Below are positions 10,004 to 26,735 of a stretch of 64,000 nt of DNA, piece by piece. Location: positions 1,513,501-1,577,500 of the forward strand of contig NZ_CP070982.1 in the NCBI RefSeq assembly GCF_018417595.1, written 5' to 3'. The position numbers and the translations under genes are program-made. Source of the stretch: Pseudomonas entomophila (GTDB taxonomy: Bacteria > Pseudomonadota > Gammaproteobacteria > Pseudomonadales > Pseudomonadaceae). The stretch's first letter is position 1. Every line of letters begins with the position of its first letter. Below the pieces are notes generated by a model. The model saw only the letters and a list, made by a program, of their open reading frames with translations. It was not told the origin of the DNA and ran no database searches.

Positions 10004-10015
10004 GTGCTTGCTGAT

Positions 10016-10041
10016 GGCTCCAGTCTGTGCGGTCTGGAGCC
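10016..10041 (+). terminator. Hairpin downstream of the toxin-immunity pair
   Basis: GGCTCCAG and CTGGAGCC form an 8-bp stem with a 10-base loop 12 bases after the immunity gene stop. The T-rich run (10054-10059) starts about 12 bases beyond the stem, so efficient intrinsic termination is uncertain. The rest of 10042-10269 holds no gene I can support. Confidence 0.5.
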
Positions 10042-10269
10042 TACGGGTAAAAATTTTTTAACAAGTCAGCGCAGTCTATCAGGGATGTGTTGAATTTACC
10101 GAGGCGGAAAGGGGATGGATTTATTTTTTCATTATTGGTGCTGCCCACGCTGACGTGCCAACACCCCGCGTACTAGAGCATGGTAGGAATACTTTGCCAA
10201 ATGGGGTAGCCAGAGTAAACTCTCCATCCTAAAAATTTTCGCCGCGCCCAGAACTGCAGAGAAAATACC

Positions 10270-10733: not shown

Positions 10734-10899
10734 ACATAAGGTAAGGCATCTATCAAGATCTAAGTGCTAGCTCATGTCGCAGCCTGTTTGAAGCCACGAA
10801 ACCTGCAATTATTCTTCGCGCGACAACGGTAGAGAGCTTGGGCTAATTCAAGCGACACCCGACCTAGGAAAGCTTGCAGAGAAAATAAATCTGTCCCGA

Positions 10900-11382: not shown

Positions 11383-11692
11383 AAGGCTAGGGCAGGGCCT
11401 GAGTTGAATATTTTTTGCACGCTCACTGGTCCAGGCACCAGACTTGCAACTGGTTGCAGTTAAAGCTTGAGAAATCATCTGCTGCAAAGAAATAGAAGAC
11501 ATGGGATTCTGAAAAATCAAAATGTTTATTGAAACAGCCGACAGCTCTGAGTGGCTCGTCTGGACGCGCGATGCCCCATTGTATGAGCGCATTCGGGGGC
11601 AGCTTGACGATTAAGTCCATTAGCTGATCTAGATGGGCGTAGCCACTCTGTTAGTTTGCCTTGCTGTTAATAAAGCTTTTCAGGTGAATGGC
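11383..11692. other. Gap with fragmentary open frames, no supported gene
   Basis: Two overlapping short frames are visible. On the plus strand 11522-11614 encodes 30 residues (MFIETADSSEWLVWTRDAP then LYERIRGQLDD) that read like the C-terminal tail of a real protein. On the minus strand 11423-11620 encodes 65 residues (starting MDLIVKLPPNALIQW and ending LQVWCLDQ), also of plausible composition. Neither has a convincing ribosome site and they cannot both be real. The stretch is probably debris of displaced toxin or immunity cassettes. Confidence 0.35.
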
Positions 11693-11989
11693 ATGCTTGA
11701 CATTGATGTCTCTGGTAGAAATGGAAAAGTTAAATTCAATGACTTTTGTTTTGATGAGCGTCAATCCCTCGATTTATGCTTGGACGATTTAAAAGAAGAC
11801 ATGCTGCAAATCAAGTTTCCCGGAGATTTGATTTTAGACGTAGGGTGGCGACCGTCCTTTGACATCCGCGGTGGCTTTCACATCTTGCTGATCAAAAATT
11901 ACGATTGGGAAAAGCCGATTTATCACGGTTTTTCCAGAACAACTGAAACACTCAAGGCCAAAATTTCTGAGGCGCTTCTACTGATATGA
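11693..11989 (+). CDS. Hypothetical protein, possible orphan immunity protein
   Basis: A 98-residue acidic protein (MLDIDVSGRNGKVKFNDFCF...), mostly alternating short beta-like segments, ending KAKISEALLLI. I chose the ATG at 11693 because AGGTGA precedes it; an in-frame ATG at 11633 would add 20 residues. No family is recognised. It is the last gene of the AT-rich block that starts at the Rhs toxin tip, which supports a cassette of toxin-immunity remnants but not a specific function. Confidence 0.5.
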   Translation: MLDIDVSGRNGKVKFNDFCFDERQSLDLCLDDLKEDMLQIKFPGDLILDVGWRPSFDIRGGFHILLIKNYDWEKPIYHGFSRTTETLKAKISEALLLI

Positions 11990-12130
11990 AGCACACACCC
12001 AAACCTTGAGGCCTAGGTTGCTGGGTCTACGCGTCTGGCGTCAGTTGCAACAGAACAAGTAACACGGCAGTGGGGGGCGACGCCTGCCGCCCCGTGAGGT
12101 ATCGCGTCGCAGCATGTAACCGTTTCGGCC

Positions 12131-13289: not shown

Positions 13290-14222
13290 ATGAACCTCGA
13301 CACCCGCATCAAGTACCGCCACCTGCTGTGCTTCCTGGAAATTGCCCGGCAGGGCAGCCTGGCCAGGGCCGCCGACGTGCTCGCCATCAGCCAGCCGGCG
13401 ATCTCCAAGACCCTCAAGGAGCTGGAAGACCTGCTCGAGGCGCGCCTGTTCGAGCGCTCGCGCAATGGCGTCGCGCTGACCCCGGCCGGCACCCGCTTCA
13501 TGCGCTACGCCGGCCCCAGCGTGCAGGCCCTGCGCGAGGGCGTGGGCAGCGTGCGCGGCGAGGCGCGCACGCCGTCGCAGGTGCGCATCGGCGTGCTGTC
13601 CACCGTCGAGGGGCTGTTGATGCCGGAGGTGCTCTGCCGCCTGCACCAACGCCACGAGGCACTGGTGATCAGTGTGGTGACCGGGGTGAGCGCGCAACTG
13701 CTCGGGCAGTTGCACCTGGGCGAGCTGGAACTGGTGGTCGGGCGCATGACCGACAGCCCGCAGATCCAGGGCCTGTCGTTCGAGCACCTGTACAGCGAAT
13801 CGATGGCCCTGGTGGTGCGCCCGGGCCATCCGCTGCTGGCCAGCACGCCGGTGGAGCGGGCCCAGGTGGGGCGCTATCCGCTGGTGCTGCCGCCCCAGGG
13901 CACCACCATTCGCCAGCACGCCGACAGCCTGTTCGTGCAGTGCGGCATCCCGATGCCGGCGCAGCGCCTGGAAACCTTGTCGCTGGCCTTGAGCCGTCGC
14001 TACCTGCTGGGCAGCGACGCGCTATGGGTGGCGCCGCGCGACGCCGTGCTGCTCGACCTGCGGCACAACGAACTCGCCGAACTCGACCTGGGCGTGCGCG
14101 AACCGGGTGGCTCGGTGGGCATCTGCCGCAACGCCGCGGTGCCGCAGAGCCTGCCGGCCCAGTGGATGTGCGAGGTACTGCGCGAGGTGGCCGGGCAGTA
14201 CCGGGACGGCGATTACCCCTGA
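13290..14222 (+). CDS. LysR family transcriptional regulator, PcaQ/GbpR-like
   Basis: A 310-residue regulator with an N-terminal winged HTH (IKYRHLLCFLEIARQGSLARAADVLAISQPAISKTLKELE, residues about 7-46) and a LysR substrate-binding domain (IGVLSTVEGLLMPEVL onward). The HTH closely resembles the PcaQ group, which elsewhere controls protocatechuate degradation, but no aromatic-catabolism gene is next to it. Its 3' end overlaps the 3' end of the convergent tolC-like gene by 10 bases. It may regulate the neighbouring minus-strand operon or a remote target; the sequence does not decide. Confidence 0.85.
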   Translation: MNLDTRIKYRHLLCFLEIARQGSLARAADVLAISQPAISKTLKELEDLLEARLFERSRNGVALTPAGTRFMRYAGPSVQALREGVGSVRGEARTPSQVRIGVLSTVEGLLMPEVLCRLHQRHEALVISVVTGVSAQLLGQLHLGELELVVGRMTDSPQIQGLSFEHLYSESMALVVRPGHPLLASTPVERAQVGRYPLVLPPQGTTIRQHADSLFVQCGIPMPAQRLETLSLALSRRYLLGSDALWVAPRDAVLLDLRHNELAELDLGVREPGGSVGICRNAAVPQSLPAQWMCEVLREVAGQYRDGDYP

Positions 14223-15559
14223 GCCGGGCGGGTGAGCAGGGCGCTGAGGCGCTTGAGGTTGTCGTCGCCCAGGCTGCCGCTGGCGGCCATCAGGCGCAGC
14301 TGGGCCTGGAGAATGGCGTAGCGCTGGCGGGCCAGCTGCAGGGTGGTGCGGGTGACCTGCTGTTCGGCATCCACCACGTCGCTGCTGATCCGCGCGCCGG
14401 CTTCGAAGGCGTGGGTGGTGATCTGCAGGTTGCTCTGGCTGGAACGTAGCGCCTGCTGCAAGGCCTGGTACTGGCTGAGCCCGCCGGTCAGGTTGAGGTA
14501 GGCCTGGCGGGCCATGAAGTCGGCCTCGCGGCGGGCATCTTCCAGTTCATCCTCGGCGGCGCCATGCAGGGCGCGCGCCTCGCGGGTGCGGCTCTGGGTG
14601 CCGCCACCGGCGTACAGCGGTACGCTCAGTTGCACGCCGACCACGGTCTGGGTGTACTTCTCCTCGGGCACGGTGACGTCGTAGAGGCTGCCGCCGACCG
14701 AGGCGAAGCGCCCGTGGGCGGCGACCAGGTCGAGGGTCGGCAGGTGGCCGGCCTGTTGTTTCTCCACTTCCTGCTCGGCGATCAGCCGGCGCACTTCGGC
14801 GGCCTGCACCTTGAGGTTCTGCGCCCGGGCCTGTTCGGTCCAGGCCTCCATGCGCGCCGGTTGCGGGCCGGCGAAGGCCACTTGGTCATCCAGCCGCGCC
14901 AGTTCGCCGGGGTCGTTGCCGATCAGTCGCGCCATGGCCTGTTGTTGCAGGCGCAGGGCATTGCCCGCAGCGATCTGCTCGGCCTGGGCCAGGTCGTAGC
15001 TGGCCTGGATGCGCTGTACTTCGTTCTCGGTGCCCGAGCCTTCGCGGCGGAAGCGTTGCGCCTTGTCCAACTGTTGGCCGAGGCTGCGCACCTGCTGGCG
15101 GCTGGTGTGCAACTGGTCTTCGGCCAGCAGCAGTTCGAAGTAGGTGTCGGCCACGCGCAGCATCAGGTCCTGGCGCGCCGCCAGCAGGTCGATTTCGCCA
15201 GCGGTGGCCTGGGCTTTGCCCTGGGCATGGTCGATGACGTTCTGCCAGCGCAGCAGCGGCTGGACCAGCACCAGCGCGTAGGCGTTGGAGTTATCCTTGT
15301 CGCGCTGTGCGCCACCGCTGTGCTCGCGGTCGACCCAGGCCGCGCCGCCTTCCAGCGACAGGTGCGGCAACAGCGTGGCCAGCCCCTGGGGGGCCTTTTC
15401 TGCCGCGGCCTGCTGGCGTTGCTGGGCGGCGGCGTAGGTCATGTCGTGATCCACGGCCTTGAGGTAGGTCTGGTACAGGTCGCTGGCCTGGCCAGGGTTG
15501 CTGCACAGCGCCAGCAGCGCCAGCGCGGCTACGCGGATTCGGGGGCGGTGTCCGGGCAT
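14213..15559 (-). CDS. TolC-family outer membrane efflux protein
   Basis: A 448-residue protein with a signal peptide (VAALALLALCSNPGQASDLYQ) and the two-fold TolC pattern: long coiled-coil helical stretches (about 40-190 and 240-430) and a beta-strand region around GVQLSVPLYAGGG. It would form the outer membrane exit duct. It is the last gene of the ten-gene operon and overlaps the transporter gene upstream by 31 bases, which indicates coupled expression. It completes an EmrA/EmrB-type tripartite pump. Confidence 0.9.
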   Translation of the reverse strand: MPGHRPRIRVAALALLALCSNPGQASDLYQTYLKAVDHDMTYAAAQQRQQAAAEKAPQGLATLLPHLSLEGGAAWVDREHSGGAQRDKDNSNAYALVLVQPLLRWQNVIDHAQGKAQATAGEIDLLAARQDLMLRVADTYFELLLAEDQLHTSRQQVRSLGQQLDKAQRFRREGSGTENEVQRIQASYDLAQAEQIAAGNALRLQQQAMARLIGNDPGELARLDDQVAFAGPQPARMEAWTEQARAQNLKVQAAEVRRLIAEQEVEKQQAGHLPTLDLVAAHGRFASVGGSLYDVTVPEEKYTQTVVGVQLSVPLYAGGGTQSRTREARALHGAAEDELEDARREADFMARQAYLNLTGGLSQYQALQQALRSSQSNLQITTHAFEAGARISSDVVDAEQQVTRTTLQLARQRYAILQAQLRLMAASGSLGDDNLKRLSALLTRPAQG

Positions 15560-17100
15560 GTCGCAGATTCCTTTGCGGGTTGAGGCTTGGGGGTCCTGGG
15601 GTTGCGCATCATCAGCACCATGGGCACGCCGACCAGCATGACCGCGCCGAGCAGGCCGAAGAGCATGCTGAAGCCGAGCATCTGCGCCTGGTCGCGGGCT
15701 TCGAGGAAGGCCAGCAGGGTGTTGGCCTGGCCGGGGTCGAGCAGGTCGGTGGACAGGCGCCTGGGGTCGAGGTTGGCGACCTCCCAGCCGCCGGCGAGCA
15801 GGCGGGTTTCGTCGACGTGCTCGGACAACTGCCGGTAGCGCGACCAGGAGAAGCGCGTGAGCAGGGTGGCGGCGATGGCGATGCCGACGCTGCCGCCGAG
15901 CTGGCGCATCAGGTTGAGCACGCCGGAGCCGACCGAGATCAGCCCTTGCGGCAGTTGGCGCATGGCCAGGTTGGTCAGTGGCACGAAGATCATGCCCAGG
16001 CCGAAGCCGCGGATGACCAGCGGCCAGAACAGCGTGTCCGGGTTGCTTTGCAGGGTGAACTGGGTGTGCAGGTACATGGCGTAGCCGTAGATCAGGATGC
16101 CCAGGCAGATGAACACTCGCTCGTCGATACGGTTCTCCTGGGACAGCTTGCCGATCACCAGGGTGCTGACGGCGCTGGCCAGGGCGCCGGGGAAGATCAC
16201 CAGGCCACTTTGGTAGGCGCTCTGCTCAAGCAAGGTCTGCAACAACAGCGGCACCATGAACAGGGTGCTGTACAGGCCGAAGCCCACGCAGAACGCGCAG
16301 ATCGAGCCGAGCAGGAACTCGCGGTTGGCGAACAGCGACAGGTTGACGATCGGGTTGGCGACCCGTCGCTCCCAGTAGCAGAACCCAACCAAGCCGAGCG
16401 CCGACAGCACCAGGCACAGCACGGTGAGGTCCGATTCCAGCCAGTCCCAGTGCTCGCCGCGCTCCAGCAGGATCTGCAAGCTGCCCACCCCGAGGGCGAG
16501 CAGGGTGAAACCAAGGTAGTCGATGCTCTGCGGGCGTCGCTCGTGGCGTGAGTCGTCCACGCACAGCCAGGCCAGCAGCAGTGCTACCGCGCCGATCGGC
16601 AGGTTGATCAGGAAAATCCAGTGCCAGGAAAACGCATCGATCAGGTAGCCGCCCACCGACGGCCCCAGGGTCGGCCCCATCATCACCCCGACGCCGTACA
16701 CCGCCATGCCGGCGCTGACCTTCTCCTTGGGGAACACGTCGTAGATGATCGCCTGGGAGATCCCCAGCAGGCCGCCACCGGCCAGGCCCTGGACCACCCG
16801 GCACAGCACCATCTGCCACAGCTCCACCGACAGCGCGCAGCCCAGCGAGGCGACCACGAACACGGCGGACGACACCAGGTAATAGGCGCGCCGGCCGAAC
16901 CAGGCCGACAGCCAGCCACTGGCCGGCAGGATCACCACGTTGGCGACGATGTAGCCGGTCGACACCCAGGAGATCTCGTCCACCGACGCCCCGTAGCTGC
17001 CCATCAGGCTGGGGATCGCGACGTTGACGATGGTCACGTCGAGCAGTTCCATCATCGAGATCAGGGTGACCGTCAAGGCCACCAGCCAGGGCGATTTCAT
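15529..17100 (-). CDS. DHA2-type major facilitator drug/metabolite exporter, EmrB-like
   Basis: A 523-residue inner-membrane protein with about 14 hydrophobic segments. It begins WLVALTVTLISMMELLDVTIVNVAIPSL, the typical DHA2 first helix with the D-x-T-I-V-NVA-P motif, followed by the loop motif GWLSAWFGRRAYY and motif C-like MMGPTLGPSVGGYLID. The start overlaps the stop of the emrA-like gene by four bases (ATGA). It is proton-driven and would export the product of the upstream enzymes through the EmrA-TolC conduit, conferring self-resistance. The substrate is unknown. Confidence 0.93.
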   Translation of the reverse strand: MKSPWLVALTVTLISMMELLDVTIVNVAIPSLMGSYGASVDEISWVSTGYIVANVVILPASGWLSAWFGRRAYYLVSSAVFVVASLGCALSVELWQMVLCRVVQGLAGGGLLGISQAIIYDVFPKEKVSAGMAVYGVGVMMGPTLGPSVGGYLIDAFSWHWIFLINLPIGAVALLLAWLCVDDSRHERRPQSIDYLGFTLLALGVGSLQILLERGEHWDWLESDLTVLCLVLSALGLVGFCYWERRVANPIVNLSLFANREFLLGSICAFCVGFGLYSTLFMVPLLLQTLLEQSAYQSGLVIFPGALASAVSTLVIGKLSQENRIDERVFICLGILIYGYAMYLHTQFTLQSNPDTLFWPLVIRGFGLGMIFVPLTNLAMRQLPQGLISVGSGVLNLMRQLGGSVGIAIAATLLTRFSWSRYRQLSEHVDETRLLAGGWEVANLDPRRLSTDLLDPGQANTLLAFLEARDQAQMLGFSMLFGLLGAVMLVGVPMVLMMRNPRTPKPQPAKESATCPDTAPESA

Positions 17101-18164
17101 AGGGTCTGGCCCTTGTCGTCACGGGTGTCGACCTCGACGAACACGCTCATGCCCTGGCTGATGGCATCCTTCATCCCAGCGGGCAGGTCCTTGAACTCGA
17201 TGCGTGTCTGCACCCGTTGCACCACCTTGGTGAAGTTACCCGTGGCGTTCTCCTGGGGCAGCAACGAGAAGCGTGCGCCCGTGGCCGGCACCAGGCTGTG
17301 CACCACGCCTTCGAAGGTCTGGCCGGGGAAGGCGTCGACGCTGATCCGCGCCGGCTGGCCGACCCGCACGCGGCCGATCTGGGTCTCCTTGAAGTTGGCC
17401 ACCACCCAGACGTGCTCGGTGCTCACCAGGCTCAGCAGTTTTTGCCCGGCCACCACGAACTGCCCGGGCTGCACGTCCTTGTGCACGATGAAGCCGGCCC
17501 GCGGCGAGGTCTGCCGGGTGTCCTGCAGGTTGATGCGCGCCAAGGCCAGTTCGGACTCGGCGGCCTTGATCCGGTACTCCTCCACCTTGAGCGCCGCCTG
17601 GTTGGCCAGGGTGCCCTCGCGGGCGGCGTTGGAGTTGTCGCGTGCGCCCTGCAACTGGTGGTTCAGGGCGCTGTAGCGGGCGCGCGCGGCTTCCAGGTCC
17701 TGGGTGCTGACCACCCCCTGTTCGGCCAGGCGCTGGGTGCGCCGGTAGTCGCTGGCGGCCTGTTCGACGTTGGCCACCAGTTGGCCGATCATGGCCTTGG
17801 CGGCCTGGCTGCGGGCGACGGCGCCGCGCACCTGGCTGTCCACCAGCCCGGGCATGCCGCCCTGGCCGGTCGCCACCAGGGCGCCCAGGTAGTTGGCCTC
17901 GGCCCGTTCGACCCGCTGGTGGTACTCGTCCTCGCGCACCTGGAACAGCAGGTCGCCTTTGCCCACCTGGGTGTTCTCGCGCACCGGCACCCGGACCACC
18001 ACACCGCTCAGCTTGGCGCGGATCGGGATGATGATCCCTTCCACTTCGGCGTTGTCGGTGCTGACGTACTGCCGCGCATACTGCCAGCGCTGCCAGCCCA
18101 GCAGCGCCAGGCCCGCGAGCACCGCCGCGCAGACCGCCAACTTGGCATGCTTGCCTTTCAACAT
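17097..18164 (-). CDS. HlyD/EmrA-family membrane fusion protein
   Basis: A 355-residue periplasmic adaptor with one N-terminal membrane helix (LAVCAAVLAGLALLGWQRW), the first half of a lipoyl/barrel-sandwich domain (VSTDNAEVEGIIIPIRAKLSGVV), a long coiled coil (about 85-200), the second lipoyl half (SPRAGFIVHKDVQPGQFV) and a C-terminal beta-barrel (IGRVRVGQPARISVDAFPG). It links the EmrB-like pump to the TolC-like duct. The ATG at 18164 follows GAGGGT; 73 bases separate it from the DUF3050 gene upstream. Confidence 0.92.
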   Translation of the reverse strand: MLKGKHAKLAVCAAVLAGLALLGWQRWQYARQYVSTDNAEVEGIIIPIRAKLSGVVVRVPVRENTQVGKGDLLFQVREDEYHQRVERAEANYLGALVATGQGGMPGLVDSQVRGAVARSQAAKAMIGQLVANVEQAASDYRRTQRLAEQGVVSTQDLEAARARYSALNHQLQGARDNSNAAREGTLANQAALKVEEYRIKAAESELALARINLQDTRQTSPRAGFIVHKDVQPGQFVVAGQKLLSLVSTEHVWVVANFKETQIGRVRVGQPARISVDAFPGQTFEGVVHSLVPATGARFSLLPQENATGNFTKVVQRVQTRIEFKDLPAGMKDAISQGMSVFVEVDTRDDKGQTL

Positions 18165-18237
18165 GTCATACACCCTCGTTCGTGTTGCAAGGGGACAGGG
18201 ACCCTTGCCCGCCGCATCGACGGGCAAGGGCATGGGC

Positions 18238-19038
18238 TCAGACGGCGGCGGCGACGCTGGCCTGACGGGCTTTGTGCACCGCGCGCTGGTCGAGCTGTTC
18301 GAGCACGCCCTGCCACAGCAGCGTACGGGCGACCAGGGCATCGCGCGCGCTGTGCACCAGTTCCTGCTGCTGCTCCGGCTGGTCGACGATCTCGGCGATG
18401 ATCCGCTTGGCGGCCGGGCCGTGGTCGTCGCCGTCCATCTCGATGTGGCGCTTGAGGTAGTAGGTCAGCATCGGCACGTTGGACTCGTCGATCGCCCATT
18501 GCTCGAGCAGGCGGCCGAACATGTCGGGGATGATGTCTTCGCGGCCGAAGAAGAAATACGCCAGCACCTGCACGGTCGAGCCATTCAGGGCCACATCGAG
18601 GGTCTTGCTGACGAACACCCGGGCCGGTGCTGGAATGTCGGCGCTGTCCAGGGCATGGGCCAGGGAGGTGCCGGCTTGCAGCAGGGCCTGGAAGTGGCGG
18701 AACGGCCCGGTGTCGGCGCCGATCTCGTCCATGGCCTGCAGGTACAGCTCCAGGTGGCTGATGAAGCCGCCGCCCGGGCGCTCGTCGGTTTCCTCGCCGG
18801 TGACGATCTCGTTGATCAGGCGCGCGGCCAGGGTGTGGCGCGGTGGCAGCCAGGGCAGGTCGACGCAGGTCAGGTCGCGCTGGATGCGCTTGAGCAGGGT
18901 CATGAAGTCCCAGACGGCGAACACGTGGTTCTCCATCAGCAGGCGGACATCCTCCACCGTGCTGATGCGGGCGAACAAGGGGTGTTCCAGCAGGGTGCGG
19001 CGTTCGTGCTGGATCAGGTTATCGACTTCGAAGGACAT
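18238..19038 (-). CDS. DUF3050 protein, predicted haem-oxygenase-like (di-iron oxidase) fold
   Basis: A 266-residue, mostly helical soluble protein that I recognise as DUF3050. Possible metal ligands in the order expected for a haem-oxygenase-like di-iron oxidase are H38 (ENHVF), E77 (LINEIVTGEE), H95 (GFISHLELY), E167 (FFFGREDII), and H198/E200/D202/H206 in the segment RHIEMDGDDHG. Enzymes of this fold catalyse N-oxygenation, C-C cleavage and terminal-alkene formation (for example UndA), but DUF3050 itself has no function I know of. The ATG at 19038 follows GGAG at good spacing; upstream ATGs at 19050 and 19077 are weaker. It lies among the biosynthetic genes and just before the exporter. 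Confidence 0.8.
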   Translation of the reverse strand: MSFEVDNLIQHERRTLLEHPLFARISTVEDVRLLMENHVFAVWDFMTLLKRIQRDLTCVDLPWLPPRHTLAARLINEIVTGEETDERPGGGFISHLELYLQAMDEIGADTGPFRHFQALLQAGTSLAHALDSADIPAPARVFVSKTLDVALNGSTVQVLAYFFFGREDIIPDMFGRLLEQWAIDESNVPMLTYYLKRHIEMDGDDHGPAAKRIIAEIVDQPEQQQELVHSARDALVARTLLWQGVLEQLDQRAVHKARQASVAAAV

Positions 19039-19078
19039 ACTCGGCTCCATGAGTGTGATTGTTGTGTGTTGGGGCATT

Positions 19079-20050
19079 TCAGTGTTCTTGTGGGGCCTGC
19101 TCGGCAACCGTCTGCCAGGTGCCGGAGTAGGGGAAGCGCGCCTGGCAATAGCGCAAGGCGCCGAAAAAGCGGGGCTCGAGCAGCGCCCGGCGGCCGTCGT
19201 ACCAACCGCTGGCCAACAACTGCCGGTGCAGCCGCGGCAGGCGCCAGCACGGCACCCGCGGGTACAGGTGATGCTCCAGGTGGAAGTTCGAGCCCAGGTG
19301 CAGCAGGGTGCTCAGCAAATCGGTGCGCGAACGGGCGACCGGCTGCTCGACACCGACGTCGAAGGCGTGCTCCTGATAGGCGTTGAGCGCCGACACCAGC
19401 AAGGCAACCAGCAGGCAGGCCAGCAGCGCCGGCAACAGCACCGGCCAGCGCATCACCAGCCACAGCCAGAACAGCGGCCACAGCACCTGGCAGGCGAGGT
19501 TGAACCTGGCCAGCAGGCGGATCTGCCCGGCCGGCAGCGGCAGCGTGCCTTCGACCTCGGCGCCGGGCAGGGCCAGGCGCAGGGTCTGCAGCAGATAGCG
19601 CGCGGTGGCATGCAGGCGCGACACCAGCAGCCGGGTCACGGCCAGCCGGTAGCGACGCAGCAGACGCCAGTCCGGGTCGTCGGGGCCACCGTTGTGGCGG
19701 TGATGCTGCCAGTGGTCGACGAAGTAGCCGGTGGCGCAGAAACCGCACAGCAGCGAGCTCAGCAGCACCGCCAGCAGGCAACTGAGCAGGCGGTTGTGGC
19801 TGAGGTTGAAGTGCAACCCCTCGTGCCCGAGGATGCCTTGCACGAACAGGCCGTAGCCGGCCGGCAACAGCAGCGGCCAGGCCAGCAGCCACGCCCAGGG
19901 CGCCTGTTCGGCGGCCACCACGAACAAGGCCAGGGGCACGCCGAACAGCAGCAGTGCGTAGCCGATCACCAACGCCGATTCCAGTGCCGATGGCGTGAGC
20001 AAGCGGCGGTCCGGGCGCAAGGCGGGCTTGTCCAGCGGCAGGTGCTTCAT
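19079..20050 (-). CDS. Membrane fatty acid desaturase/hydroxylase-type di-iron enzyme
   Basis: A 323-residue integral membrane protein with the three histidine boxes of this superfamily: HEGLH (76-80), HWQHH-RH (113-119) and HLEHH (257-261), plus an extra H228 in NAYQEH. Hydrophobic pairs of helices lie at about 25-70, 88-105 and 180-225. Members desaturate, hydroxylate, acetylenate or decarboxylate acyl chains using O2. The gene is 10 bases downstream of the SDR gene and 40 bases before the DUF3050 gene, so one oxidative step on a lipid-derived intermediate is likely. Substrate and regiochemistry cannot be read from the sequence. Confidence 0.92.
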   Translation of the reverse strand: MKHLPLDKPALRPDRRLLTPSALESALVIGYALLLFGVPLALFVVAAEQAPWAWLLAWPLLLPAGYGLFVQGILGHEGLHFNLSHNRLLSCLLAVLLSSLLCGFCATGYFVDHWQHHRHNGGPDDPDWRLLRRYRLAVTRLLVSRLHATARYLLQTLRLALPGAEVEGTLPLPAGQIRLLARFNLACQVLWPLFWLWLVMRWPVLLPALLACLLVALLVSALNAYQEHAFDVGVEQPVARSRTDLLSTLLHLGSNFHLEHHLYPRVPCWRLPRLHRQLLASGWYDGRRALLEPRFFGALRYCQARFPYSGTWQTVAEQAPQEH

Positions 20051-20060
20051 CGCCCGGGCC

Positions 20061-20888
20061 TCAGTCGATCAGTTCAGGCTTGAGCGCCAGTTGCCCGGCC
20101 TTGCTCAGGCTGCGCAGGCGCAGGCCGATGAAGGCGTCGACCAGGCTCGGCAACCAGCGCGCGGTGTACATCGCCACGCTACCGAGGAAGGTCAGGCCAC
20201 GGTTGCGCAGGCCGCGCTTGACGCAGGCCCGCAGCAGCCCGTTGCTGGCGTCGTCGAGCTTTTCCTCCAGCGACAGCAGCACGCGGTCGCCGCGCTTGAA
20301 GCTGACCAGGCGCTTGACCGACAAGCCCACCCGTTCGGCCGGGTCGTGGATGGCGGTGTCGATGAAGCCGGGGAACACCGTGACCACGTCCAGCTGCCCC
20401 GGGTACTGCATGCGCAGCACGTCGGAGTAGGCGCTCATGGCGCGCTTGCTGGTGGCATAGGCGGCCACATAGGGCGCGTTGACCAGGGCGAACAGCGAGG
20501 ACACGTTGACCACCTTGCCGCGGGTGCGCAGCAGCGCCGGCAGGAACCGCGCGGTCAACTGCCAGGGCGCCAGCAGGTTGATCTCCAGGGCACGGCGCAC
20601 GTCATCGTTGACCCCGGTCTCGCCGCGCTCGAGGGTGAGCACGCCGGCGTTGTTCACCAGGATGTCGATGTCGCCGAAACGGTCCTGGATCGCGTCGACC
20701 GTCTCGTTCACCCGGGCCTGGTCGCACAGGTCGAGCTGGTAGTAGGCGTCGAAGTCGACGGCGGCCTGGGGTTCGAGGCGATCGATGCCGATCACCGTGG
20801 CGCCCTGGCGCTTGAGTTTGCGCGCTGTGTGCAGGCCGAGGCCGCGTGCCGCGCCGGTCATGACGACGATCTTGTTGTGCAGGTTCAC
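20061..20888 (-). CDS. Short-chain dehydrogenase/reductase
   Basis: A 275-residue classical SDR: cofactor motif TGAARGLG (11-18), NNAG (79-82), catalytic S130 or S131 with Y144 and K148 (YATSK). D36 in VIGIDRLEP after strand 2 suggests NAD(H) preference. The C-terminal 60 residues are basic and hydrophobic (LRNRGLTFLGSVAMYTARWLPSL), which could associate with membrane, as seen in SDRs acting on lipids. It starts with GTG overlapping the stop of the acyl-CoA dehydrogenase-like gene by four bases. Confidence 0.93.
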   Translation of the reverse strand: MNLHNKIVVMTGAARGLGLHTARKLKRQGATVIGIDRLEPQAAVDFDAYYQLDLCDQARVNETVDAIQDRFGDIDILVNNAGVLTLERGETGVNDDVRRALEINLLAPWQLTARFLPALLRTRGKVVNVSSLFALVNAPYVAAYATSKRAMSAYSDVLRMQYPGQLDVVTVFPGFIDTAIHDPAERVGLSVKRLVSFKRGDRVLLSLEEKLDDASNGLLRACVKRGLRNRGLTFLGSVAMYTARWLPSLVDAFIGLRLRSLSKAGQLALKPELID

Positions 20889-22030
20889 GCGTTGGCTCCC
20901 TTGGCGATGCTGAAGGTGGCGGTGTGCAGGTAGTGGTCGAGGTTGGCCGACATGCTGAAGCGCCCCGGCGGGTGGAATTGCAGGCCACGGGTGCTGTTCA
21001 GCCAGTTGCTGGTGTCGTTGCTGCGGATGAACGCCAGGCCTCCCAGCATCTGCTGGGCCAGGTCCGAGGCCCGGGCCAGCTGTTGCTCGATGCCGTAGCG
21101 GGTCAGCAGCAGGCGCGCCAGCAGGTCGTCCGCACCGTCGTCCAGGTGCTCGACTTCATGGGCCAGGCCCTCGACGGCGCTCAGGCACAGTTGCAGCTGG
21201 CTGGCCAGTTCGACACGCTGCAGGTCGTTCCAGCGTCGCTCGCCGACCACGGTCTCGGCCATCCCCAGGCAAGCGCCCAGGTAGGTGGCGCAGATCAGCA
21301 GCTCGAACCAGACGAAGCCGATGGTCTGCACTTCGCCCAGCTGCGCCTTGAGCCCGGCCGAGAAGATCATCTTGTCGCTGACATAGACGTCCTCCAGGCG
21401 CAGCTCCAGGCTCTGGGCCCCGGCCAGCGCGCTGTTGGCCCAGAACGGGTGACGGCTCATGCCCGGTGCCGCTGCTGGAATCAAGGCGATCATCAGCTCT
21501 TCGCCCTGTTCGGTGTCACGGCTGAAGCTGGCGGTCAGCAGGTCCATGGAGCTGGCCAGGCTGCAGGGTTGCTTGCTGCCGTTGAGGCGCACGCCGTCGG
21601 CCAGGCGCACCGCTTCCATGCCGGCGTCGAGGATGCCGCCCCCCGGCACGCCCTCGGCGAAGCCTGAGGCTACCAGCAGGCGCTGCTGGGCGATGGCCGA
21701 CAACAGCAAGCCTTCGGCGCCCGCGCCCTTGGCCGCCACGGCGACCAGGCTGGCGACGGAGAACTGGTGCATGGTGCTGGCGATCGCCAGCGAGGGCGAC
21801 AGGGCGCCGATGGCCACCTGCACCTGTACCGCCTCGAGCGCCGTGGCACCCAGGCCGCCAGCCGCCTTGGGCACCAGCAGGCCCACCGGGCCGGTGCGCT
21901 TGAACCAGTCCACGACCGGACTGCCATGGGCTTCGCGCTGGTCGAAGGGCAGCTCCGCCAGCAAGCGGGCGAAGCCGGGGGCGAAGTGTTCCAGGGTCTG
22001 CCTGGAGCGCTGTAGCAATGACAAGGGCAT
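20885..22030 (-). CDS. Acyl-CoA dehydrogenase-family flavoprotein
   Basis: A 381-residue protein with the acyl-CoA dehydrogenase layout: N-terminal helices (GPVGLLVPKAAGGLGATALEA), the middle beta domain (RLNGSKQPCSLASSMDLLTASF) and the C-terminal helical bundle (LASDLAQQMLGGLAFIRSN). The usual catalytic glutamate is not evident by eye, so it may be an oxidase, monooxygenase or alpha,beta-dehydrogenase of the family acting on a carrier-bound or free substrate. The ATG at 22030 is four bases after the SRPBCC gene stop; the longer upstream frame is an out-of-frame artefact over that gene. Confidence 0.88.
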   Translation of the reverse strand: MPLSLLQRSRQTLEHFAPGFARLLAELPFDQREAHGSPVVDWFKRTGPVGLLVPKAAGGLGATALEAVQVQVAIGALSPSLAIASTMHQFSVASLVAVAAKGAGAEGLLLSAIAQQRLLVASGFAEGVPGGGILDAGMEAVRLADGVRLNGSKQPCSLASSMDLLTASFSRDTEQGEELMIALIPAAAPGMSRHPFWANSALAGAQSLELRLEDVYVSDKMIFSAGLKAQLGEVQTIGFVWFELLICATYLGACLGMAETVVGERRWNDLQRVELASQLQLCLSAVEGLAHEVEHLDDGADDLLARLLLTRYGIEQQLARASDLAQQMLGGLAFIRSNDTSNWLNSTRGLQFHPPGRFSMSANLDHYLHTATFSIAKGANA

Positions 22031-22034
22031 TACA

Positions 22035-22478
22035 TCAATCCTTGATCTGACTGTTCGGGAACAGGCCATTGATGATGGCGCTGATGTTGTCGCGGATCGC
22101 CTGGCGGGCCACCGGGTCGAGCATGTCGGCGAGCATCGGCATGCCCAGGTCGAAGCAGGAGTGGAAGGCGATGCTGGCGCCCTCGGGTGCTTCGCTGACC
22201 TGCCAGTACCCCGAGAAGTGGTCGATGTCGCCGGCGGTCTGGCGGAAGTGGATATGCAGGTTGGCGGGGTCGAAGACATCGCGCTCCTGCCACTTGAGAA
22301 TGCCGCTGTGGAAGTTCACCTCCCAATTGCTGAGCACCTGGTTGTCGTCGATCGATTCGATCTCGATGTTGCGCACCGACTCGCACAGTTGCGGGTACAG
22401 GCTGAAGTTGCTGATGGCGGCATACACCTGTTCGGCGCTCTGGCTGGGAACGTAGGCGTTAAGGCTGACTTCTTTCAT
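22035..22478 (-). CDS. SRPBCC (START/polyketide cyclase-like) protein
   Basis: A 147-residue protein with the helix-grip pattern: strand 1 EVSLNAYVPSQSAEQVYAAISNFSLYPQLCESVRNIEI, alternating strands (LSNWEVNFHSGILKWQERDVF, HIHFRQTAGDIDHFSGYWQV) and a long C-terminal helix (DPVARQAIRDNISAIINGLF). The fold encloses hydrophobic ligands and includes aromatase/cyclases and lipid-transfer proteins. A role in binding or cyclising the pathway intermediate is inferred. AAGGAG precedes the ATG. Confidence 0.85.
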   Translation of the reverse strand: MKEVSLNAYVPSQSAEQVYAAISNFSLYPQLCESVRNIEIESIDDNQVLSNWEVNFHSGILKWQERDVFDPANLHIHFRQTAGDIDHFSGYWQVSEAPEGASIAFHSCFDLGMPMLADMLDPVARQAIRDNISAIINGLFPNSQIKD

Positions 22479-22488
22479 GTCGCTCTCC

Positions 22489-23748
22489 TTATTGGGTGAA
22501 AGTGCGGGCGAGGGCGGTGGCGAGGCCGTCCAGCAGCCAGGCCACATCGCTGTCGCTGTACAGCGCGGGTGGCGTGAGGCGGATCACCCGGTGATCGTTG
22601 AGCGAGTGATTGACGACGATGCGCTGGTCGATCAGGTGCATGACCATGTTGGCGGCCAGCCCCGCGTCGGCGAACTCCAGCCCCAGCAGCAGGCCGGCGC
22701 AGCGCAAGCGCACCTGGTCGGCGCGGGGTTGTTCGCGCAGCACGGCTTGCAGGCCGCTTTGCACCTGCTGGCCCAGGGCTTCGGCCCGTTCCACCAGGCC
22801 GTCGCGCTGCATGACCTGCAGCGTGGCCAGCACCGCGGCCATGGCCAGTGGGTTGGCGCCGAAGGTGGTGGTGTGCATCAACGGGTTGCGGTTGAGCGGC
22901 GCCTGGATGTCGGGGGTGCAGACCATGGCGCTGACCGGCACGCAGCCGCCGGACAGGCTCTTGCCCACCAGCAGGATGTCGGGCACCACGCCTTCGTGGT
23001 CGCAGGCCCACCAGCGCCCGGTGCGGCCCAGGCCCGACTGGATCTCGTCGGCGATCAGCACCGCGTTGTGGCGGTCGCACAGCTCGCGCACCTGGCGCAG
23101 GTAACCGGGCGGCGGCAGGATCACACCGGCTTCGGCCTGCACCGGCTCGAGGATCACGCAGGCCCGATCTGGCAGGGCTTCGAGGGTGTGGCGCAGCGCC
23201 TCGATATCGCCGAACGGCACGAACTGGCTCTCGCCAAGACGGTTGGCGAACGGCGAGCGATAGAGCTCCCGGCCGGTCACCGCCAGCGCGCCCAAGGTCT
23301 TGCCGTGGTAGCCGCCGACGGTCGAGACCACGTGCTTGCAGTCGTTGAGCCAGGCCAGCTTGAGCGCCGCCTCGGTGGCCTCGGTGCCGGAGCTGCAGAA
23401 ATACACGTACTGCAAGTCGCCGGGGCAGACCGCGGCCAGTGCCGCGGCGGCCTGGGCCTGGTAGGGGTTGAGCAGCAGCTTGCTGGCCAGCGGATGGCTG
23501 TGCAGCTGGTGGCTGACCCGTTCGAGTACGTCGGGGTGCCCATGGCCCAGCAGGAACACGCCATAGCCACCGGCGTCCAGGTAACGATTGCCCTGGCTGT
23601 CGAACAGGTACACCCCGGCGCTCGAGGCCTCGATCGGCAGGTTCATCATCGAGGCCAGGCGGGCGTAGCCGGCGTTGACGTGGTCACGGTACTGCTGCTG
23701 GATCAGCGCCGTGTCGAAGACATCGGGCATTGTGCTGAAGCTGTTCAT
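22489..23748 (-). CDS. Class III PLP-dependent aminotransferase
   Basis: A 419-residue fold-type I aminotransferase. Visible features are the cofactor-binding SSGTEATEAALK (about 119-130), GGYHGKTLGA (145-154), D234 in LIADEIQSGLGRTG, and the Schiff-base lysine K263 in LLVGKSLSGG. Relatives use ornithine, 4-aminobutyrate or polyamine-like donors, and several natural-product members aminate long-chain aldehydes. Directly downstream of the acyl reductase gene (5 bases apart), it most likely aminates the aldehyde that the reductase would make; that step is inference. The start at 23748 is internal to a longer open frame that overlaps the reductase gene. Confidence 0.92.
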   Translation of the reverse strand: MNSFSTMPDVFDTALIQQQYRDHVNAGYARLASMMNLPIEASSAGVYLFDSQGNRYLDAGGYGVFLLGHGHPDVLERVSHQLHSHPLASKLLLNPYQAQAAAALAAVCPGDLQYVYFCSSGTEATEAALKLAWLNDCKHVVSTVGGYHGKTLGALAVTGRELYRSPFANRLGESQFVPFGDIEALRHTLEALPDRACVILEPVQAEAGVILPPPGYLRQVRELCDRHNAVLIADEIQSGLGRTGRWWACDHEGVVPDILLVGKSLSGGCVPVSAMVCTPDIQAPLNRNPLMHTTTFGANPLAMAAVLATLQVMQRDGLVERAEALGQQVQSGLQAVLREQPRADQVRLRCAGLLLGLEFADAGLAANMVMHLIDQRIVVNHSLNDHRVIRLTPPALYSDSDVAWLLDGLATALARTFTQ

Positions 23749-23753
23749 CGTGC

Positions 23754-24827
23754 TCAGGCCTCCAGGGCGACGTCGGCGCGGCGTTGCGCCGGGGTGGGCA
23801 CTTTCAGCATGCGTTGCATGGCCGAGAGCTTGGGCGACAGGCGGGCGAGGGTGAGCGCCAGCTCTTCGCGCGGCGAGCGTTGCGCCAGGCGCCTGGCCGG
23901 CAGCAGCTCTGCCAGTGAGCTGGGCAGTGGCTGCAGCAGGCTGGCGTAGCGGCATAGCTGGGTGGCCCGGCCGAGGGCCGCGCGGATGTTTTCCTCAAGC
24001 GCAGGCAGGAACACCGGGCGTACCAGGCGCTCGTAGATGTCGGGGTTCATGCAGCGCGGGCGCTGGAACGGCTTGCCTTGCTGGTCCATCTCCAGGCACA
24101 TCAGGTCCAGCAGCGTGCGGATGTCCAGTGCCTGCGGGCCGTTGCTGAGGAAGTAGTCGTCGCCGATCAGGCGCTGGTCCAGCGCGCTGACGATGGCCGC
24201 GGCGGCGACGTCGCGGGCGATCACGTCGACCCGACCATTCTCGGGGCACGGGATGATCGGCAGGTAGCCCGACATCATCAGCCCCATGGTCAGGTGGAAC
24301 CCTTGCAGGATCGGCATGTGGCCGGTCTGGCTGTCGCCGATGATGATCGATGGGCGGAAGATCGACACCGGGACACCGGCTTCGCGCACCAGGGTCTCGG
24401 CCTGGCGCTTGACGATCTCGTAGGGCGTCGAGGGCATCACGCCGGCGTGGTAGTCGCATGGGTGGGTGAACGCGGTGCTGATGTGGTAGAGCGGCACCTG
24501 GGCGTCGCGCACCAACTGCAGCACCTGCTCGGTACCCTGGTAGTTGACCGAGAACACGGCTTCGGCGTGGCCGTCCAGGCGGGTGATGGCGGCGCTGTGG
24601 ATCACCCAGTCGATGCGTGGCAGCAGGGCCAGGTAGTCGGCGGCGCTCAGGCCCAGGCGTGGCTGGCAGATATCGCCGCGCAGGGTTTCGACGCCGGGGT
24701 GGCGAATCGCGCTGCGCCGGGTCAGGCAAATCAGGTCGTAGCGCTCGGCCAGTTGGTCAATCAAGGTATCGCCCAGTACGCCGGCACCGCCGGTAAGGAA
24801 AACAGTCATCCGTGAGGGGCCGGACAT
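23754..24827 (-). CDS. Extended SDR / thioester reductase-like (fatty acyl reductase-type) protein
   Basis: A 357-residue extended SDR. It has the cofactor motif LTGGAGVLG (11-19), DWVIHSAAITRLDG (73-86), a catalytic serine in HISTAF (117), and Y136/K140 in TPYEIVKRQAE, followed by IFRPSIIIGDSQTGHMP as in the NAD_binding_4 group (thioester reductase domains of NRPS/PKS and fatty acyl reductases). These release thioester-bound acyl groups as aldehyde or alcohol. It is stand-alone here, with no A or carrier domain, so the substrate would be acyl-CoA or acyl-ACP. The ATG at 24827 follows AAGGAG, and this is the first gene of the operon. Confidence 0.88.
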   Translation of the reverse strand: MSGPSRMTVFLTGGAGVLGDTLIDQLAERYDLICLTRRSAIRHPGVETLRGDICQPRLGLSAADYLALLPRIDWVIHSAAITRLDGHAEAVFSVNYQGTEQVLQLVRDAQVPLYHISTAFTHPCDYHAGVMPSTPYEIVKRQAETLVREAGVPVSIFRPSIIIGDSQTGHMPILQGFHLTMGLMMSGYLPIIPCPENGRVDVIARDVAAAAIVSALDQRLIGDDYFLSNGPQALDIRTLLDLMCLEMDQQGKPFQRPRCMNPDIYERLVRPVFLPALEENIRAALGRATQLCRYASLLQPLPSSLAELLPARRLAQRSPREELALTLARLSPKLSAMQRMLKVPTPAQRRADVALEA

Positions 24828-24829
24828 GT

Positions 24830-24905
24830 GCTTGCACTCCTTGCTCGCAGAAAGTGGGTGAAATGGCAGTTTTCATGGGCGGCCGCTTGCACGCCTGTGC
24901 AAGCG
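24830..24905. promoter_or_regulatory. Operator candidate: octamer GCTTGCAC three times upstream of the biosynthetic operon
   Basis: GCTTGCAC occurs at 24830-24837 and 24885-24892 in one orientation and inverted at 24897-24904. The last two form a perfect 9-bp inverted repeat, CGCTTGCAC-GCCT-GTGCAAGCG, 57-78 bases before the start codon of the first operon gene. The arrangement suits a regulator site, with the adjacent AraC protein the obvious candidate. No clear -10/-35 pair was recognised. Confidence 0.5.
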
Positions 24906-24925
24906 ACCACGTGATCGAAACGAAG

Positions 24926-24947
24926 AAAAAAGCCGGCCTGGGCCGGC
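24926..24947 (-). terminator. Intrinsic terminator after the AraC gene
   Basis: Read on the minus strand, a 7-bp GCCGGCC/GGCCGGC stem is followed by a run of six T. It lies downstream of the AraC gene and upstream of the operon, so the regulator is probably a separate transcription unit. Confidence 0.75.
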
Positions 24948-25013
24948 GGCAATGCCTGCGCTAGGAAGTGGAGATCCCGGTCAGCGGAGGTCGGAAGGGA
25001 TGATGGCGTTTCA

Positions 25014-25748
25014 CTACTGCTGATTCTTGAACGAATCGCTCGTATTGCGCAGCACCATGGCGACGCGGCTGGGCGACATCCCGACCATGCGCCGCATCAT
25101 GCGGGTGAGGTGGGCCTGGTCGGCGAAACCGCCGGCCATGGCCGCGTCAGTGAGGCTGGCATCGTGGGCGAGGGCGTGGCAGGCACGTTCGAGCTTGCGC
25201 CAGATGATCCATTGCGAGAGCGGCACGCCCATATGGCGGGTGGCGAAGAAGCGCAGGCGCGGGCTGGAAAGGCCGACGGCACTGGCCGCGCGGGAGATCG
25301 CGCCGATCCCCGCGCAATCGTCGCGCAACAGGTGCAGGGCATTGGAGAGCCGAGGGTCGAAGGCATCGTCGGTCACCAGCAGGCGCTCCAGGGTTTCGAC
25401 CACCTCCTGGAAGCTGTCGGCTTGGCGGATGCAGTTGACGATCTCGGCGCTGGCCACTGCCGTGCCGCTGGTGTCGACCAGGGCATTCAGCGCCCGGCCC
25501 AGCGGGGCGTCGGGATAGAGGTAGAGGAATGCGATGCGGTCGGGGCTGGGCAGCGAGCGGTGGTCGACGAAGGGGCCGATGATCACCCCGGCGCCGGTCA
25601 GCGCGCGGTCGGCGAGCTCCACGGTGATATCACCGCGCAGGCCGATACAGAGCTGGATGGCGACGTGGGCATGGGCGCTGGTCTGGTCGGCCGTGCCGGT
25701 ATAGCCCAGCCAGTAGTCACCGAAAGTCACCTCGCCATCCCATCTCAT
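25014..25748 (-). CDS. AraC family transcriptional regulator
   Basis: A 244-residue protein with an N-terminal cupin-like sensing half (SAHAHVAIQLCIGLRGDITVEL) and a C-terminal AraC/XylS double HTH (LERACHALAHDASLTDAAMAGGFADQAHLTRMMRRMVGMSPS, about 190-232), complete with the FADQAHLTR and GMSPS signature. The layout resembles small AraC proteins that sense amphipathic or aromatic compounds. It directly precedes the biosynthetic and export operon on the same strand, separated by a terminator and inverted repeats, so it is the likely cluster regulator. Confidence 0.92.
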   Translation of the reverse strand: MRWDGEVTFGDYWLGYTGTADQTSAHAHVAIQLCIGLRGDITVELADRALTGAGVIIGPFVDHRSLPSPDRIAFLYLYPDAPLGRALNALVDTSGTAVASAEIVNCIRQADSFQEVVETLERLLVTDDAFDPRLSNALHLLRDDCAGIGAISRAASAVGLSSPRLRFFATRHMGVPLSQWIIWRKLERACHALAHDASLTDAAMAGGFADQAHLTRMMRRMVGMSPSRVAMVLRNTSDSFKNQQ

Positions 25749-26006
25749 CGCACGTCCCTGAAGCCCGTCCCTGACAGGCTGGCCGTCCCTCGGCCAGCCG
25801 CTGAATCGCCGGCCATGATAACGGTCTGATATATGTCGGTCGATACAATTCGCAACATATAATCATTTGCACTGACGCCAGCCGTTTCAGTACTTGAACT
25901 TCTAGGACTTTTGTCGCTCTCATGCCGGTAGCCATTGGTCGTGGCCGCCTGATAAGCTCGCGGCTTTACCCTGATTGCCCCTATGGCGCATGAACAAGGA
26001 AATAGC

Positions 26007-26735
26007 ATGAAACAGCATCGTTTGGCGGCTGCGGTTGCCCTGGTAGGCCTGGTCCTGGCCGGTTGCGACGCCCAGACCAGCAGCGTCGAGCTGAAGACTC
26101 CGGCACAGAAAGCCTCCTACGGTATCGGCCTGAACATGGGCAAGAGCCTGGCTCAGGAAGGCATGGACGACCTGGACTCCAAAGCCGTCGCCCAAGGTAT
26201 CGAAGACGCTGTCGGCAAGAAAGAACAGCGCCTGAAAGATGAAGAGCTGGTCGAGGCCTTCAGCGCCCTGCAGAAGCGCGCCGAAGAGCGCCTGGCCAAG
26301 GCCAGCGAGGAAGCGGCCGCCAGCGGCAAGAAATTCCTCGAGGAAAACGCCAAGAAACCAGGTGTGGTCACCACCGCTTCCGGCCTGCAGTACGAAGTGG
26401 TCAAGAAGGCCGACGGCCCGCAGCCCAAACCAACCGACGTGGTCACTGTCCACTACGAAGGCAAGCTGATCGATGGCAAGGTGTTCGACAGCTCCGTCGA
26501 GCGCGGCAGCCCGATCGACCTGCCGGTCAGCGGCGTGATCCCGGGCTGGGTCGAAGGCCTGCAACTGATGCACGTCGGCGAGAAGTACAAGCTGTACATC
26601 CCGGCTGAACTGGCTTATGGCGCCCAGAGCCCGAGCCCGCTGATCCCGGCCAACTCGGTCCTGGTATTCGACCTGGAACTGCTGGGCATCAAGGACCTGA
26701 GCAAGGCTGAAGTCGAAGAAGCGCCCGCCAAGTAA
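26007..26735 (+). CDS. FKBP-type peptidyl-prolyl cis-trans isomerase, lipoprotein
   Basis: A 242-residue cell-envelope folding catalyst. The signal peptide ends in the lipobox LVLAGC with lipidated C20. It is followed by the FKBP_N dimerisation helices (about 35-110) and an FKBP domain (VVTVHYEGKLIDGKVFDSSVERGSP, VIPGWVEGLQLMHVGEKYKLYIPAELAYG). Asp follows the lipidated cysteine, which in enterobacteria favours inner-membrane retention; the rule in pseudomonads differs. AAGGA precedes the ATG at 26007; an upstream ATG at 25983 would spoil the signal peptide. It begins a conserved block shared, from memory, with P. aeruginosa. Confidence 0.93.
   Translation: MKQHRLAAAVALVGLVLAGCDAQTSSVELKTPAQKASYGIGLNMGKSLAQEGMDDLDSKAVAQGIEDAVGKKEQRLKDEELVEAFSALQKRAEERLAKASEEAAASGKKFLEENAKKPGVVTTASGLQYEVVKKADGPQPKPTDVVTVHYEGKLIDGKVFDSSVERGSPIDLPVSGVIPGWVEGLQLMHVGEKYKLYIPAELAYGAQSPSPLIPANSVLVFDLELLGIKDLSKAEVEEAPAK

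Follow-up and report, generated by a model that had tools for sequence, protein, structure and literature searches.

What does a compact run of ten genes on the minus strand of Pseudomonas entomophila make, and has it been met before? The run occupies positions 14213-24827 of a 64,000-nt window, the whole stretch of DNA that was analysed (NZ_CP070982.1, 1,513,501-1,577,500). Coordinates given without a locus name are positions within this window. Seven genes (g1 to g7) encode enzyme-like proteins and three (g8 to g10) an EmrA/EmrB/TolC trio. We found that the locus is another copy of a described, still orphan antibacterial cluster. The ten genes probably make and export an N-oxidised fatty amine, a reading built on analogy with studied pathways. 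An AraC-type regulator gene (HTH_18; 25014-25748, minus strand), overlooked in the initial annotation of this DNA, stands upstream as the eleventh member of the locus. We lean slightly toward the overall model, an AraC-adjacent operon for a small exported antibacterial lipid amine derivative.

The identical ten genes behind an AraC gene were reported by Ye et al. 2014 from P. putida W15Oct28 (PMC4219678). Matuszewska et al. 2021 listed BV82_4236 to BV82_4245 of P. donghuensis P482, in matching order, under the name “cluster 17” (PMC8154892). The initial annotation had recognized no described Pseudomonas pathway here, which these two publications contradict. It had also expected the cluster to escape standard detection, and this was borne out: antiSMASH 2.0 flagged cluster 17, and newer versions, including 5.0, passed over it (PMC8154892). 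In P482, disruption of either of two of the genes lowered the antibacterial activity on minimal medium. A mutant in the short-chain dehydrogenase (SDR) gene BV82_4240, the g5 homologue, no longer killed Dickeya solani on glycerol and lost ~90% of the activity against a second target bacterium. The mutant in emrA, the g8 homologue, had ~40% of the activity remaining on glucose and ~30% on glycerol (PMC8154892).

Other observations from the same two strains weigh against an antibacterial role. The cluster of W15Oct28 could not be inactivated, its role was left as a hypothesis, and the activity-negative transposon mutants were mostly in pyoverdine genes (PMC4219678). In P482, the SDR mutant showed no difference against D. 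solani on glucose, both mutants resembled the wild type on LB, and the SDR and emrA genes showed no significant difference in expression from one carbon source to another. The pyoverdine peak was also missing in the emrA mutant (PMC8154892), whose phenotype may therefore be partly indirect. The cluster 17 paper names no product (PMC8154892). A literature search for the identity of the compound, with most subscription papers outside its coverage, found no report naming it.

The ten-gene arrangement is more than chance, because all ten genes stand in the same order in every sampled Pseudomonas genome bearing the g6 desaturase. Of the 398 Pseudomonas genomes sampled, 14 had this desaturase, the window's genome included. 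The remaining 13 carried all ten genes in identical order (13/13), with AraC adjoining g1 on the same strand (13/13). A pattern-based scan of genomes with organism names found the locus 15 times, always in Pseudomonas, with AraC and the ten genes ordered on one strand in 15/15. These were P. entomophila COR5 and 4A7, P. capeferrum WCS358, P. putida W15Oct28, P. donghuensis HYS, P. veronii DSM 11331, P. paracarnis, P. lactucae, P. fluorescens ISL-62, P. pudica and five further Pseudomonas strains without species names; they come from one scan, their organisms overlap with the 13 relatives, and the two counts are not additive. The closest copy was that of P. entomophila COR5, with 97-100% identity per protein. 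The genes occur together in other species, and the initial annotation had made its proposal depend on such co-occurrence and on the absence of a known product, which our literature search did not yield. The 30 Pseudomonas comparison loci examined had the highest scores among the 242 genomes that gave a match. Relatives of g4 at E 1e-60 were found in 3/369 sampled genomes of the class, including the window's own. In one locus (L053 9195-10130, G368) a TGA was counted inside the desaturase match; the open reading frame (ORF) there reads through 311 residues, and the match probably ran beyond the gene end.

Beyond Pseudomonas, a DUF3050 search of 398 genomes of the phylum found matches at 18 loci in 17 non-Pseudomonas genomes, and every locus was retrieved. 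One of the 17, from the same class (L118), had a single minus-strand run with relatives of all seven enzymes: g5 (43% identity), g1 (33%), g2 (45%), g3 (42%), g4 (43%), g7 (55% over 203 residues) and, weakly, g6 (30% over 180 residues). The run also encoded an MMPL transporter, a LolA-like/DUF1329 protein, an unassigned protein and an NAD-binding reductase. EmrA, EmrB and TolC matches were absent from the L118 stretch. The enzymes stay together while the transporter differs, since L118 pairs the enzyme relatives with MMPL. The reductase of this run (NAD_binding_1, L118 6968-8053) adjoins the DUF3050 gene and could be an electron donor; the Pseudomonas operon has no such gene.

Starting from gene content, conservation, family membership, catalytic motifs and the clade of g7, which are observed, we infer every chemical step, the order of the steps and the regulation by AraC. 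The stand-alone thioester-reductase-like SDR g1 (23754-24827, minus strand as all ten; NAD_binding_4, 116.6 bits) would reduce an acyl thioester from primary fatty-acid metabolism to the aldehyde. It has the motifs TGGAGVLG and YEIVK, with Tyr136 and Lys140 invariant in 7/7 aligned sequences, including L118. The class III aminotransferase g2 (22489-23748; Aminotran_3, 295.8 bits) would turn the aldehyde into a primary alkylamine by transamination. Its Lys263, within GKSLSGG, was invariant in 7/7 aligned sequences, and its best relatives in the Protein Data Bank (PDB) were putrescine aminotransferases. The alkylamine would then be N-hydroxylated by g4. For azodyrecin a similar route has been proposed, from fatty acyl to aldehyde to amine, with N-hydroxylation by VlmH/VlmR-like enzymes, plus desaturation (PMC9379638). 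We regard the reductase-aminotransferase-N-hydroxylase sequence as fairly probable.

The chain itself may be adjusted by g6 and g5. The former (19079-20050; FA_desaturase, 104 bits) belongs to the membrane fatty-acid desaturase/hydroxylase family and has three His boxes, HEGLH at 76, HWQHH at 113 and HLEHH at 257, whose histidines were invariant in 14/14 aligned sequences; a search for a relative of solved structure found none at E 0.01. The latter (20061-20888; adh_short, 127.6 bits) is the second SDR of the operon.

The protein g4 (20885-22030) is probably an acyl-CoA-dehydrogenase-fold flavin monooxygenase, acting as an amine N-hydroxylase. Sequence-profile searches ranked flavin monooxygenases first, with several acyl-CoA dehydrogenases close behind. 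Flavin monooxygenases also came first in structure comparisons, taking the first two places in the Foldseek list. The Acyl-CoA_dh_M match reached 27.3 bits, under the 33.3 cut-off, residues 325-370 were without Glu, and the Pfam/NCBIfam dehydrogenase scores were below cut-offs. Homologues of g4 have been annotated as isobutylamine N-hydroxylase (PMC8154892, PMC4219678); the likeness to VlmH-type amine N-hydroxylases is one of family resemblance and annotation. In the case of alanosine, N-hydroxylation has been proposed for AlnG, which likewise resembles acyl-CoA dehydrogenases (PMC7347517). A g4-like gene (39%) also lies inside a different cluster (L123 2824-12541, G1013:C30), next to an amine oxidoreductase, an ABC1 kinase-class III aminotransferase fusion, a ketosynthase III-like protein, an AMP ligase with a carrier domain and a DUF3419 protein. 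This gene run looks like another uncharacterised amine pathway.

For the initial annotation, the locus was a dedicated biosynthesis-plus-export operon in which a reductase and a class III aminotransferase convert an acyl group to an amine, and this part fits our results. It had taken g4 for an unsaturating acyl-CoA dehydrogenase, and here the evidence leans the other way, to a flavin monooxygenase acting on the amine. Its lipid-derived, aminated and exported product is still plausible, with N-hydroxylation to be added to the scheme.

The next step would fall to g7 (18238-19038; DUF3050, 274.4 bits), a haem-oxygenase-like di-iron protein that is, by its place in our tree, a member of the MgoB/PvfA-type clade. 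A separate mgo/pvf-type operon is encoded in the same genome (G000:C1 ~137063-144627; L003 2064-9628), with GntR, DUF3050, AurF, an adenylation-thiolation-reductase protein and a Polyketide_cyc2 SRPBCC protein. Between g7 and the DUF3050 protein of this operon there was 46% identity over 256 residues. The tree of 38 rows included the window, 10 of the 13 cluster-17 relatives, L118 as a 203-residue piece, mgo-type copies (that of the same genome and 13 chosen others) and 15 chosen other DUF3050 loci, less L007, L097 and L086, for which the matching part contained a stop or no match was obtained; HamA, PvfA and MgoB as published were not among its rows. Support was 100/100 for the group of 11 cluster rows and 94/91 for that of the 12 mgo-type rows. 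A 100/100 branch held both groups, L118 and two others, apart from 12 other DUF3050 rows.

The residues E83, H95, E167, H198, D202 and H206 of g7 were invariant in 12/12 aligned sequences. Their spacing of 12, 72, 31, 4 and 4 compares with 12, 72, 30, 4 and 4 for the di-iron ligands of the template, from the modelling of DUF3050 on a di-iron protein (PMC4520260). The only DUF3050 chain found in PDB sequences, 9vwb, matched g7 at E 1.6e-73; the literature search found no paper accompanying this structure. Two DUF3050 matches were present in 11/14 cluster-bearing Pseudomonas genomes, and one only in W15Oct28, S37 and 8O.

For fragin, HamA, HamC and HamE have been proposed to convert an amino group into a diazeniumdiolate, and antifungal activity requires every ham gene (PMC5878181). 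HamA and/or HamE have been named as the putative N-N enzyme (PMC11705231). Because hydroxylamines form without HamA and HamE, and a hamA mutant fed an intermediate already bearing the N-N bond made fragin (PMC11659414), our reading is that HamA would act between the hydroxylamine and the N-N bond. In the window operon g7, perhaps with g3 as substrate holder, would carry out a further nitrogen oxidation or coupling. The end product of this step would most likely be a diazeniumdiolate (N-nitrosohydroxylamine), or another N-oxidised group. We propose an N-oxidised fatty amine because the operon joins an azodyrecin-like half (g1, g2, g4, g6) to a fragin-type element (g7).

The SRPBCC protein g3 (22035-22478; Polyketide_cyc, PF03364, 58.5 bits) had 52 relatives, the named non-Pseudomonas ones including Lysobacterales 69-70, Ahniella and Tahibacter, and the L118 genome may thus come from this group. 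It is possibly a binder of lipid intermediates or a partner in nitrogen chemistry. Membership in the HamE/MgoD/PvfD family was considered and found unsupported against the same-genome mgo-type protein and 13 relatives. With the former g3 had no useful BLASTP similarity, alignment to the mgo-type SRPBCC profile (hhalign) gave a probability of 8.7%, and none of the 52 relatives was among the best 120 of the 668 relatives of the same-genome protein.

The BLASTP and profile results count against a fragin-like role of g7 and g3, as do several further observations. The neighbours of DUF3050 genes outside Pseudomonas (10 proteins, 7 loci scanned) were mixed and included unrelated genes; the ORF caller had dropped the DUF3050 gene in L101, L115 and L117, whose contexts were judged from other ORFs. 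Hemerythrin genes adjoin two further DUF3050 genes of the g7/mgo clade, found in two separate genomes (L105 6007-7607, L117 6753-9227). The diazeniumdiolate-forming enzymes of ham have been termed elusive (PMC11659414). In P. syringae, an insertion mutant of the DUF3050 gene mgoB still made mangotoxin, in slightly reduced amounts, and the authors suspect that the insertion left the function intact (PMC3298696). To take the presence of DUF3050 as proof of N-oxidation was too strong, given the mixed neighbours and the hemerythrin-adjacent clade members. The N-N end point is speculative, because g3 is not close to MgoD and the operon has no AurF or nonribosomal peptide synthetase (NRPS) gene, and we consider it doubtful. 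For a diazeniumdiolate in particular, the SRPBCC protein belongs to a different family and the contexts of DUF3050 are varied, which makes this end product uncertain. The contrary results (Foldseek ranks, relatives' names, mgoB mutant, LB) and the HamA feeding result pull in both directions.

The amine could also be N-hydroxylated and then carried by g7 from the hydroxylamine to an oxime, nitroso, nitro or nitrile, with no N-N bond. The same enzymes would suffice, g3 is not MgoD-like, and a nitrosating partner is not visible among the ten genes. Some haem-oxygenase-like di-iron enzymes oxidise nitrogen without forming N-N bonds. This outcome is unlikely in our estimate; against it, the nearest DUF3050 relatives of studied context are those of the mgo/pvf/ham operons (PMC5878181). 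An azoxy compound of the valanimycin/azodyrecin type would have the front half in common with the window operon, namely reductase, transaminase, putative VlmH-like enzyme and desaturase (PMC9379638), and g7 is of the fold class to which VlmB, as a haem-oxygenase-like di-iron oxygenase, has been assigned (PMC11705231). We consider such a product highly improbable, because relatives of VlmO and VlmA were not found in the same genome. No DUF4260 (PF14079) match was present there, a weak test, with the VlmO homologue Ady6 only weakly related to PF14079. The sole LPG_synthase_C match of the genome, at 4.5 Mb, is an MprF-type protein and not VlmA, because it carries the lysylphosphatidylglycerol synthase membrane region.

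Two more readings turn on g4 and on the pump. If g4 were a true acyl-CoA or acyl-acyl carrier protein (ACP) dehydrogenase, the product would be an unsaturated fatty amine or a condensed amine, not N-oxidised by g4. The fatty amine of tambjamine is a precedent for a dehydrogenase-made unsaturated fatty amine. Much of what speaks against an N-hydroxylase falls in place here. Beside the fold and the weak Acyl-CoA_dh_M match, Foldseek placed butyryl-CoA dehydrogenase third and isovaleryl-CoA dehydrogenase thirteenth, the margin over acyl-CoA dehydrogenases was small in the structural comparison of g4 (VIA), and phmmer and a wider profile of g4 also matched several acyl-CoA dehydrogenases. In a scan that scored the 8000 best candidates, the source names among the best 120 of 989 matches were nearly all acyl-CoA dehydrogenase. 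E243 was invariant across 49 aligned relatives, at what we take to be the position where isovaleryl- and long-chain acyl-CoA dehydrogenases keep the catalytic Glu. The domain scan also found no flavin reductase among the ten genes. The same E243 is carried by a relative named isobutylamine N-hydroxylase, flavin monooxygenases came first by sequence profiles and the Pfam match was under its cut-off, and so we judge a dehydrogenase to be rather improbable. That the phenotypes derive mainly from the pump, through pyoverdine or general efflux, with an enzyme product unrelated to antibiosis, would fit the missing pyoverdine peak of the P482 emrA mutant (PMC8154892). It appears very unlikely to us: disruption of g5 alone abolishes the activity against D. 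solani on glycerol (PMC8154892), and in L118 the enzymes are accompanied by a different transporter.

The ten ORFs, their coordinates and their Pfam/NCBIfam domains agree with those of the initial annotation. Of the exporter genes, g8 (17097-18164) encodes an EmrA-type membrane fusion protein (HlyD_D23, 84.7 bits, above cut-off; TIGR00998, 218.2 bits, below the 390.8 cut-off), g9 (15529-17100) an EmrB-type major facilitator superfamily exporter (TIGR00711, 414.1 bits, above the 230.2 cut-off) and g10 (14213-15559) a TolC-type outer-membrane channel (TIGR01844, 252.7 bits, above the 225.15 cut-off). With a membrane fusion protein, a DHA2 permease and TolC in one operon, they have the composition of an EmrAB-TolC exporter and would export the product. 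Likely starts of g2 (23748), g3 (22478), g4 (22030), g7 (19038) and g8 (18164) were set by comparison with the 13 relatives. With these starts the intergenic gaps from g1 to g10 were 5, 10, 4, -4, 10, 40, 73, -4 and -31 bases. The genes are closely set, as had been claimed; the 4-base overlaps claimed with it occur at just 2/9 junctions, and gaps of 40 and 73 bases flank the DUF3050 gene. Operon-mapper divided the homologous set of P482 into 7 + 3 genes (PMC8154892). The domain scan of the ten genes found no carrier, ligase, NRPS or polyketide synthase domain, as first annotated, and none of the flavin reductase, methyltransferase or AurF type.

Between AraC and g1, a pattern scan detected a terminator-like hairpin with a T tail (24932-24947, minus strand); across 13900-26100 the scan gave 8 such sites, compared with a mean of 5.4 in shuffles. 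A search for conserved Fur/AraC sites from the AraC coding end to the g1 start found nothing common to all 14 aligned regions. The G + C content was 67.8% for the cluster and 64.6% for the window. FKBP-type and LysR genes enclose the cluster in the window, L048-L052, L054 and L063, and were not found together in L053, L055-L060, L072 and L073. With this composition, and flanks common to some loci but not others, a genomic island was set aside.

Elsewhere in the window, flavodoxin/FAD reductase-like and nitrite-reductase-like (NIR_SIR) genes were located at 30-4365, with ~10 kb separating them from the cluster. That nitrite is connected with the operon would be an attractive idea; at this distance it may be coincidence. 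An Rhs-repeat protein of 1591 residues (4935-9710) has a C-terminal Tox-ART-HYD1 (ADP-ribosyltransferase-like) domain and is followed by low-G + C DNA (44% in 10001-12000). Its domains suggest an interbacterial polymorphic toxin, with small ORFs following downstream.

The locus is kept across many Pseudomonas species and has been published twice, with its chemistry unnamed, and newer antiSMASH versions pass over it (PMC8154892). With g4 as N-hydroxylase and the clade of g7, the predicted target is a hydrophobic N-oxidised fatty amine. Fragin loses 30 Da (NO) in mass spectrometry (PMC5878181), and an NO loss would be expected if the product were a diazeniumdiolate. The operon is a small carrier-free system for testing the role of DUF3050, and the orphan antibacterial pathway becomes sharply testable. 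In the most specific form, which we put forward tentatively and well short of an even chance, the product would be a long-chain alkyl/alkenyl diazeniumdiolate, made without carrier or NRPS by an azodyrecin-like front and a HamA/MgoB-type DUF3050 protein adding the second nitrogen. If true, the antibacterial lipid would be hydrophobic and metal-binding, and the operon would offer a minimal system for finding the still-unidentified N-N-forming enzyme of fragin.

Compared with known systems, g2 resembles the aminotransferase half of PigE from prodigiosin synthesis with 323.6 bits, far under the 850-bit cut-off, and the putrescine aminotransferase model outscores PigE on g2 (377.3 bits, also below cut-off). 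In the window operon, unlike in PigE, reductase and aminotransferase are separate proteins. With ady/vlm the operon shares the logic from acyl to aldehyde, amine and hydroxylamine and a putative VlmH-like enzyme, and with ady also the desaturase (PMC9379638). It differs in having no VlmA or VlmO relative that we could find, no domain of a flavin reductase or a methyltransferase in any of its ten genes, and DUF3050 in place of VlmB/Ady8, a likeness drawn by description only. With ham/mgo/pvf, the clusters for fragin, valdiazen and related signals, it has in common a DUF3050 of the mgo-type clade, an SRPBCC protein and a thioester-reductase domain, and with ham an aminotransferase (PMC5878181). 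In contrast to these, it is without an AurF-type N-oxygenase, adenylation or thiolation domain, its reductase g1 stands alone, its SRPBCC protein is not close to that of mgo, and its amine would come from an acyl chain, not from an amino acid. The W15Oct28 cluster (L068) had 77-90% identity per protein with the window. P. donghuensis HYS (L065), which stands in for P482 and has 9/10 gene lengths equal to the P482 table (PMC8154892), had 69-81%. Without any categorical difference from the window operon, the W15Oct28 cluster, with its reported upstream AraC, and cluster 17 of P482 contain these ten genes in an unchanged order.

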